Shown: piece by piece, positions 24,221 to 26,803 of the stretch
How positions within the stretch are numbered: the first letter of the stretch is position 1
How the letters are laid out: the number at the start of each line of letters is the position of its first letter
Assembly: GCA_947259645.1 (NCBI GenBank)
Contig: CAMYND010000018.1
Span: 1-41,545 of the forward strand
Origin: Thermodesulfovibrionia bacterium
GTDB lineage: Bacteria > Nitrospirota > Thermodesulfovibrionia > UBA6902
Reading direction: 5' to 3'
Length of the DNA stretch: 41,545 nt
Notes under the pieces: model-generated
Database searches by the model: none
What the model was told of the DNA's origin: nothing
The model's input: only the letters and a program-made list of their open reading frames with translations
Translations under genes and position numbers: made by a program

Positions 24221-24236
24221 TGGCACAACGCTTGCT
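24221..24236 (+). promoter_or_regulatory. sigma54 (RpoN) promoter, consensus match
   Basis: TGGCACAACGCTTGCT matches the sigma54 consensus TGGCAC-R-N4-TTGCW at every defined position, with the -24 GG and -12 GC elements correctly spaced. The predicted start lies near 24248, about 40 nt before the GTG of the NlpC/P60-like gene. Upstream at about 24153-24178 an inverted TTGC...GCAA pair could be an enhancer-binding site. Confidence 0.85.
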
Positions 24237-24287
24237 TAAGATAGTACAGACAATTTTTCAGATCACATTTGCAGGGAGGAGGATACA

Positions 24288-25571
24288 GTGTCAGTTCATG
24301 GTATTACAAAAGGTACAGGAACGGAAATCATTACATCAGACCGCCAGAAAACTGATCCCGAGGGGTTTTCCAGGGCGTTGAAAGGCTCAATTTCCGAGTC
24401 AGGAAATACCGGCCGGGAGCTAACAGGAAAAACGCGGTTAATTGAACTCGGTCAGATCAGCAAGGAGAACCCGACAGTGTCCCATCTTCTCAAGAGCAAT
24501 CCTGAGTATGCTGATAAATGCTGGAATATCATATTTGCTGCTGAGAACCGGGGTAAAGAATATGGAAAGATGCAGGAAGGAACCGTGGTGGCCCTGAAAA
24601 CCGGGAGCAAGGAACTGCTCTGGGGGAAAGAGCTGCAAATAGCCGCTCGTGCTGCAGATGCACCTTCTGAAGAAAAATCTGTCACTGTCCATAAAAATGA
24701 AAAAGAGGACAGTTCGATTGTTGTCGGCAAAATAAGCAGCAACAATCCTACCGTCTCCCATCTCTTTCAGGCCAACGCTCAATTTTCAAACGATTATTGG
24801 GATATTATCCATGCCGGAGTGAATAGTAGTAAGAAGTTTACTGCTTTGAGGCCGGGAACTCTTGTGTCGCTGAATACCAATACCATGGAGCTTTCATTTG
24901 CGGACCCCTCAAAGAGACCCTCCCCCTCAACAGTTGTGAATTTAGATAATAATGATAAATTTGAGATGATAACAAAGAATAATCACAATTCCCTTGCGGA
25001 CGCGGTCAAACCATATATAGGTAGACCCTACAAGGAAATAGACTGCTATGGTCTCATTGTACGGGGATTGTCAAATCAGGGTTTTCAATACACGGGGCGC
25101 GGTGGCATCAGGGAGCAGCTCGAGACGCTGGCTGTCCGAAACGGACTGCCCCGAAACGCCTACTTCAGCGGAGAAGGTCTTGTTGAAAAGGCCGGAACTA
25201 AAGTATTTTCAAAAGCGATTCACAAGATCTCCAATACGCGCAAAACAACAGATGAGATATATTCAGAGATAGCTCCGCACCTCAAGGAAGGGCTCATATT
25301 ATCTTTTTCAACCCCTACACGGGGTCACACCGGGATCGTTTCACGGGAAGGAAATGACTGGACCTATATAAATTCGGGACTTATCGACAACCAGGTTTCT
25401 CCCGGCAGGGTCACAAAAAGAGTGGGAGAGGAATATCTCAAGGCTGAAATTGAAAACTGGTGCGCCCTTGCAGCAGGCGGCAAAGAATCCCTTGTGGTCA
25501 CCATGGGGCATGTTAATGATTACAATCTGAGCGCCTCAACTGGACCGTCATCATCTGTCGGTATATTTTAG
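24288..25571 (+). CDS. NlpC/P60-like cysteine peptidase with two internal repeats, sigma54-controlled
   Basis: 427 aa. There is no signal peptide. The N-terminus (MSVHGITKGTGTEI) is polar and Ser/Thr/Gly-rich, like substrates of the flagellar exporter. Two repeats of about 60 residues (52-113 and 145-205) share the pattern I-x-NPTVSHL...W-II...GT-V-L and vaguely resemble LysM. The C-terminal domain (about 232-400) has NlpC/P60 features: Cys253 in DCYGLIV, His347 in RGHTGIV and Asn362 in YINSG. The predicted role is cell-wall hydrolysis. GTG start follows GGAGGAGG. The strong sigma54 promoter and flagellar-like genes in the window suggest, but do not prove, a motility link. Confidence 0.72.
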   Translation: MSVHGITKGTGTEIITSDRQKTDPEGFSRALKGSISESGNTGRELTGKTRLIELGQISKENPTVSHLLKSNPEYADKCWNIIFAAENRGKEYGKMQEGTVVALKTGSKELLWGKELQIAARAADAPSEEKSVTVHKNEKEDSSIVVGKISSNNPTVSHLFQANAQFSNDYWDIIHAGVNSSKKFTALRPGTLVSLNTNTMELSFADPSKRPSPSTVVNLDNNDKFEMITKNNHNSLADAVKPYIGRPYKEIDCYGLIVRGLSNQGFQYTGRGGIREQLETLAVRNGLPRNAYFSGEGLVEKAGTKVFSKAIHKISNTRKTTDEIYSEIAPHLKEGLILSFSTPTRGHTGIVSREGNDWTYINSGLIDNQVSPGRVTKRVGEEYLKAEIENWCALAAGGKESLVVTMGHVNDYNLSASTGPSSSVGIF

Positions 25572-25680: not shown

Positions 25681-26803
25681 ATGATATCATTCGAAGAATT
25701 AAAAGATAAATTAAGTGAAATTAACGGGAGGATTCAAGCCCTCCGGAGGTTTCTTTGATGTACCCGGGCATGAGGTGCATCTTAAGGAAATCGAAAAAAA
25801 GCTTGTAGCTGAAGATTTATGGAATGATCCTGCCAGGGCCCAGGTGATCCTGAAAAAAAAGTCCGGAATTGAAAATATCCTCCAGCCGTTCTATGAGATA
25901 GAGAAACAATATGATGATCTGAACGTCCTTCTTGAACTCTCTGAAGAGGAAGGGGGGGAAGGTATGCTCGATGATGCGGAAGAGAGTGTCAAAAGTCTCA
26001 CCGTGGACCTCGATAATGTTGAGCTGAGAAGCACCCTTTCATCAGAGGGCGACCGCAACAACGCGATCGTTACCATAAACCCCGGAGCAGGGGGTACAGA
26101 GAGCCAGGACTGGGCTCAGATCCTCTTCAGAATGTACACCCGGTGGGCAGAGAAGAGCGGTTACAAAGTAGAAATAGTGGACCTGCTGCCCGGTGAGGAA
26201 GCCGGTATAAAAAGTGTGACCATGACTGTCACCGGCGAGTACGCATACGGATATCTGAAGGGGGAGGCAGGGGTTCACCGTCTGGTCAGAATATCTCCTT
26301 TTGACGCAAACAAGAGGCGCCATACATCATTTGCTGCCATACTCGTCTATCCAGAATTAAGCGAGGACATTGATGTTGAAATTAATGATGACGATTTAAG
26401 GATAGACACCTTCAGGGCTTCAGGAGCGGGCGGGCAGCATGTAAATAAAACAGATTCTGCTGTCAGGATTACCCACTTGCCTACCGGTATTGTTGTGAGC
26501 TGTCAGAATGAACGGTCCCAGCAAAAAAACAGGGCAACCGCAATGAAAATTCTCAAAGCGCGCATCTATGCCATAAAGAAAAAAGAGCAGGATGAGAAAC
26601 TTGATGAGATTATTGGTGAAAAAAAGGACATAGCCTGGGGCAGCCAGATCAGGTCATACACATTGCAGCCCTATCAGTTGATCAAGGACCACCGGACTAA
26701 CCATGAAGCAGGAAATGTCAACGCGGTCCTTGACGGAGACCTGGACGGATTTATTCAGGCCTATCTACTCTTGAGAAAGGAATCAAAGGGAGTTTCCGCT
26801 TAA
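25681..26803 (+). CDS. prfB: peptide chain release factor 2, programmed +1 frameshift
   Basis: About 373 aa after frameshifting. The zero frame starts at ATG 25681 (AAGGAGG upstream) and reaches a TGA at codon 26 (25756-25758) in the context CTT-TGA, with an internal Shine-Dalgarno GGAGG just before. Skipping one T continues in the +1 frame at GAT 25757. The mature domain contains the RF2 anticodon-like motif SPF (VRISPFDANKRRH) and the catalytic GGQ (ASGAGGQHVNKTDSAVR). RF2 releases at UGA and UAA; low RF2 levels favour the frameshift, so it is autoregulated. Confidence 0.97.

Follow-up and report, generated by a model that had tools for sequence, protein, structure and literature searches.

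In Salmonella and Escherichia coli, FlgJ combines the rod cap with a glucosaminidase, and the flagellar type III exporter carries this peptidoglycan-cutting domain to the tip of the rod (PMC9307174, PMC8517470). How the rod passes through the wall where FlgJ has no enzyme domain has been worked out for few species, and the answers that we found in the literature are lytic transglycosylases exported by the Sec pathway, namely the separate wall-cutting proteins SltF of Rhodobacter sphaeroides and BB0259 of Borrelia, both found alongside a single-domain FlgJ (PMC7277832, PMC8517470). Here we analysed a gene found at positions 24288-25571 of the forward strand in a stretch of 41,545 nucleotides (hereafter called the window; contig CAMYND010000018.1 of assembly GCA_947259645.1) from a Thermodesulfovibrionia bacterium, whose genome measures 3.41 Mb and is 99.6% complete. 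The explanation that we favour, with a probability of about 0.55, is that the gene codes for a peptidoglycan hydrolase that serves the flagellum specifically, leaves as an early substrate of the flagellar type III exporter and replaces or assists the missing enzyme of FlgJ. What the protein would share with FlgJ of Salmonella and E. coli is a wall-cutting domain that reaches the rod tip through the flagellar exporter. In contrast with those species, however, FlgJ is a separate protein here, and the enzyme candidate is a papain-like Cys/His/Asn protein with its own export-tag-like N-terminus. As with SltF and BB0259, a separate protein would cut the wall in the presence of a single-domain FlgJ, but the window protein has no Sec signal and has another fold than these lytic transglycosylases.

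In the source genome, the main flagellar cluster (contig C4) extends from an NtrC-type activator gene, which adjoins flgBC, and from flgBC-fliE to flgL. Pfam confirms FlgD, FlgF, FlgJ and the activator, and the other names were read by eye from the sequences. FlgJ is a single-domain rod protein of 117 residues devoid of a hydrolase domain (L071:10014-10367), and the window protein harbours neither of the FlgJ-type Pfam domains, rod-binding or glucosaminidase. The notion that the short FlgJ is found only where the gene is present was rejected, as FlgJ is single-domain in every flagellated genome of the window's family that we examined, with or without the gene.

The gene encodes 427 residues from a GTG start, which follows a good Shine-Dalgarno sequence and is backed by the alignment of the N-termini of orthologs. 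The box TGGCACAACGCTTGCT (24221-24236, forward strand), 67 nucleotides 5' of the open reading frame, matches the sigma54 (-24/-12) consensus TGGCACN5TTGCW exactly, as the initial annotation had stated, with a predicted transcription start at about 24247. It is the sole exact match in the window, where two sites with one mismatch compare with 1.6 expected by chance. A site found there by pattern search alone proves little; its conservation is its proof. The box is present in all nine Nitrospirota orthologs with available upstream sequence, 59-74 nucleotides before the start. Absence from relatives, which the initial annotation had considered damaging, was not observed: a sigma54-like box is present across two phyla, in 32 of the 36 family members at a score of at least 13 of 16 and in 25 at a score of at least 14, the latter being reached in 0.33% of shuffled upstream regions. 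The GG and GC doublets are invariant among the relatives' boxes. Genome-wide, 47 TGGCAYN5TTGCW sites were found versus 3 for the reversed control, suggesting that sigma54 is active in this genome, and the genes behind such boxes include fliK, flgF, a motA-like gene and two nif regions, among others. We also considered a conserved operon and rejected it: no neighbour of the gene is conserved in relatives, indicating that the promoter travels with the gene and not with an operon. Control of the gene by sigma54 is thus close to certain. Of note for the regulon as a whole, the two nif regions (contigs 69 and 72; L096 and L097) resemble each other: in each, sigma54 boxes precede nifH-like, nifA-like and nifE/N-like genes.

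The absence of a signal peptide, also part of the initial annotation, was borne out. Over the first 45 residues, the mean hydropathy of 12-residue stretches peaks at 0.18, versus 2.4-3.0 in Sec-type relatives (see below), and no Sec-type N-terminus was found among the 36 members of the window-protein type. Residues 1-48 (24288-24431, forward strand) are polar, with hydrophobic residues near positions 3-6, and are predicted by AlphaFold2 to be disordered (predicted local distance difference test (pLDDT) about 30-43) except for residues 28-32, which form a short helix. Alignment and motif counts single out F27-S-R-A-L31 (24366-24380, forward strand) as a candidate gate-recognition motif for flagellar export, F27 and L31 being among the few invariant N-terminal positions. 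The pattern F-x-x-x-hydrophobic (hereafter called FxxxPhi) is a form of gate recognition motif. It starts at residues 25-35 in all 36 N-termini, which are otherwise unalignable, and occurs within residues 20-45 in 12% of shuffled sequences. In the source genome, it is present at residues 31-46 in all nine export substrates of the rod/hook type (FlgB, FlgC, FliE, FlgD, FlgE, FlgF, FlgG, FlgJ and FliK), versus none of the three late export substrates FlgM, FlgK and FlgL and 27 of 118 background proteins. For early rod/hook subunits of Salmonella, the export signal consists of a hydrophobic N-terminal signal and an FlhB-binding gate recognition motif (PMC8983047). The N-terminal motif of the window protein is a strong hint of flagellar export, not proof, and judging from the sequence the protein is likely to leave the cell through the flagellar exporter.

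Intact members of the family are found almost only in genomes with FlhA. In family f1, to which the window belongs, all 13 carriers have FlhA, or FlgJ in the case of one genome that is 70% complete, and the gene is missing from all seven unflagellated genomes (Fisher p 0.03, phylogeny ignored). In the Desulfobacterota order, FlhA is present in 21 of the 22 clear carriers versus 173 of 243 genomes overall (p 0.004, phylogeny ignored). The exceptions to this co-occurrence, in genomes G044 and G467, are fragments of the gene. Homologs do not occur in many non-flagellated genomes, a distribution that the initial annotation would have counted as a refutation, and a functional link with flagella appears highly likely. 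Another genome in which FlhA was not found, G446, harbours a truncated remnant of the catalytic domain of 76 residues (L170), which looks like decay after the loss of flagella.

The C-terminal part of the protein, residues 234-427 (24987-25568, forward strand), is a predicted papain-like catalytic domain, with AlphaFold2 pLDDT values mostly above 80 for residues 230-410. In the set of proteins used for the tree, Cys253 (36/36), His347 (38/38) and Asn362 (38/38) are invariant, and Glu296, Asp367 and Glu382 are conserved; this set does not comprise a four-repeat member with a lost catalytic site described below. The initial annotation had proposed an NlpC/P60-type Cys/His/Asn site and had named a predicted fold devoid of the Cys/His pair as a refutation. 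The residues and the predicted papain-like fold hold up, whereas the assignment to Pfam NLPC_P60 (PF00877) remains below threshold. The domain shares with NlpC/P60 proteins the order Cys, His and polar third residue, its motifs DCYGL, RGHTG and WTYINSG resemble theirs, and the endopeptidases 2hbw and 2evr of that family are among its weaker Foldseek matches (probabilities of 0.80 and 0.47, respectively). However, 94 residues separate its Cys from its His, a longer spacing than in typical NlpC/P60 members. The best Foldseek match is AvrPphB of peptidase family C58 (E-value of 2.4e-4, probability of 1.00), and others are Josephin-type ubiquitin proteases. With AvrPphB the identity is 13% with no sequence match, and the third residue is Asn362 in the window protein, where the triad of peptidase C58 (Cys-His-Asp) has Asp. 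The domain is predicted to be papain-like and NlpC/P60-like, and its membership of the latter family is not proven. Sequence searches of solved structures in the PDB gave nothing meaningful for the whole protein, the catalytic domain or the repeats. Weak hits of a few members to DUF7071 and AstE_AspA_hybrid in Pfam were treated as chance.

Between the N-terminus and the catalytic domain, the protein harbours two NPTVSHL repeats of approximately 64 residues, as initially noted, at residues 50-113 (24435-24626, forward strand) and 142-205 (24711-24902, forward strand), which are 39% identical. Structure prediction of the repeats gave a confident AlphaFold2 model (pLDDT 95) with a beta-alpha-alpha-beta-beta order that matches no PDB fold (best E-value of 2.5), and no Pfam family describes them. 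We also considered that they might be LysM domains, given their beta-alpha-alpha-beta order and a 'PGT.V.L' end reminiscent of LysM, but neither Pfam (no hit to PF01476) nor the fold comparison supports this identity, and an hhalign comparison, made with a LysM alignment of three sequences from the same genome, gave a probability of 2%. Copies of the family carry one to four repeats. A member with four of them (L169, in genome G242) has its catalytic Cys and His replaced (VDNYKL, DQSG), suggesting that the repeats may have a non-enzymatic role. A repeat-like stretch was also found at the N-terminus of a lipoprotein secretin (L185, in genome G828; E-value of 2.7e-6); from this sequence similarity, the repeat may also be part of other envelope machines.

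The family has no Pfam or NCBIfam model. A search of named genomes that used this one protein as query found no relatives, and an alignment was needed as query; relatives found by name belong to the Nitrospirota, class Thermodesulfovibrionia. In alignment-based searches, the family is found in one Nitrospirota family and scattered Desulfobacterota. The catalytic domain is present in 13 of the 230 genomes of class Thermodesulfovibrionia, with a single exception within the window's own family, and a sample of the Nitrospirota phylum outside that family yielded none. In a tree drawn with a midpoint root, the Nitrospirota members form one clade (98/96) nested among Desulfobacterota members. In genus g13 (L028, L029, L030; L112-L114), the catalytic domain is preceded by a SPOR domain and a hydrophobic Sec-type signal, which may be that of a lipoprotein. 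This version lacks the sigma54 box and the repeats, and in the tree it clusters with the Nitrospirota members. As SPOR domains bind peptidoglycan, their fusion to the catalytic domain behind a Sec-type signal points to peptidoglycan as the target, which is probably the substrate of the window protein as well. We rejected a phage or plasmid origin, as there was no phage match, plasmids gave noise only, viral contigs gave none and a viral fold library returned nothing below an E-value of 0.001.

We propose that sigma54 and the flagellar NtrC-type activator switch the gene on together with the genes of the rod/hook stage. The unfolded N-terminus would then dock at FlhB by means of F27xxxL31, the hydrophobic residues near positions 3-6 serving as a second export signal, as in FliE, FlgD and FliK, and the protein would travel through the exporter and enter the periplasm where the nascent rod has its tip. 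There, the two repeats might anchor it to the cell wall or to the rod and FlgJ, and the Cys253/His347/Asn362 domain would cut a peptide or amide bond in peptidoglycan, thereby opening a gap that an FlgJ without a hydrolase domain cannot make. The initial annotation had suggested flagellar export and peptidoglycan opening for the rod or a flagellar sheath. The FxxxPhi motif, the SPOR-containing relatives and the single-domain FlgJ support the former parts of this suggestion, and nothing was found for a sheath.

Several observations weigh against this hydrolase. FxxxPhi is a loose motif, and its start at residues 25-35 in the family leaves a gap slightly shorter than the 26 residues of Salmonella, where the motif is located at residue 30 or beyond (PMC8983047). 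The gene lies outside the flagellar operons, its neighbours differ between genomes in a synteny test, and the co-occurrence p-values do not account for phylogeny. The fragment in G044, a Nitrospirota genome that is 82% complete and in which no FlhA was found, lies at a contig edge. Flagellated relatives devoid of the gene number 17 of 30 in f1 and approximately 152 of 173 in the Desulfobacterota order and include some with the same short FlgJ, which indicates that the protein is accessory, not core, and is neither essential for flagella nor the only solution. As for the enzyme, the window protein has no hit to Pfam NLPC_P60 and its relatives have sub-threshold ones (best E-value of 0.047, in 2 of 12 domains), and the best structural match, AvrPphB, is a cysteine protease that acts on proteins. 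That match, along with the Josephin-type ones, would also fit a papain-like cysteine protease exported by the flagellum, either to the outside or into the periplasm, to process flagellar proteins, surface proteins or those of other organisms. The promoter and the N-terminus speak equally for it, and there is a precedent in Campylobacter, whose flagellar exporter is reported to let out proteins that are not flagellar (PMC2764114). Such a protease nevertheless seems unlikely to us, given that the fusion of the catalytic domain to SPOR behind a Sec-type signal points to the wall, that 2hbw and 2evr also match and that several hosts, judging by the titles of their records, were binned from groundwater or subsurface metagenomes.

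The data can be read in two further ways. Docking alone is no proof of transit, and a cytoplasmic protein might bind the FlhB gate by FxxxPhi and regulate or process export components without ever leaving the cell, in line with the missing Sec signal and the co-regulation with flagella. The Sec-type SPOR relatives, however, place the catalytic domain in the periplasm, and the repeat-like stretch is found in an exported lipoprotein secretin, which makes a purely cytoplasmic role quite improbable. Alternatively, the protein might be an envelope enzyme that sigma54 controls but that has no mechanistic connection with flagella, its co-occurrence with them stemming from shared ancestry and the use of sigma54. 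The sporadic distribution, the lack of synteny with flagellar genes, the modest p-values and the fact that sigma54 also drives nif and other genes in the source genome are all compatible with such an enzyme, but the lack of any Sec-type N-terminus among 36 members, all of which keep FxxxPhi, and the truncated catalytic remnant in G446, a genome that yielded no FlhA, render it improbable.

If the flagellar hydrolase explanation is correct, rod passage would have a further solution in a separate cysteine-type enzyme that carries a flagellar export signal of its own, its cutting activity being delivered only where the rod grows, and both an undescribed enzyme family and a repeat domain would be defined. 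We tentatively suggest, at somewhat less than even odds, that the protein represents a new family of peptidoglycan hydrolases of the cysteine type, exported via the flagellar type III exporter and not via Sec, with a new wall- or rod-binding repeat, in bacteria whose FlgJ lacks an enzyme domain. As specific residues can be named (F27, L31 and C253), this explanation is directly testable.

Elsewhere in the window, the prfB (RF2) gene shows a classic programmed frameshift (25681-25758), with an ATG codon at 25681 and an in-frame TGA codon at 25756-25758 after CTCCGGAGGTTTCTT. Its real start is thus upstream of the GTG codon at 25715 given in the list of open reading frames.
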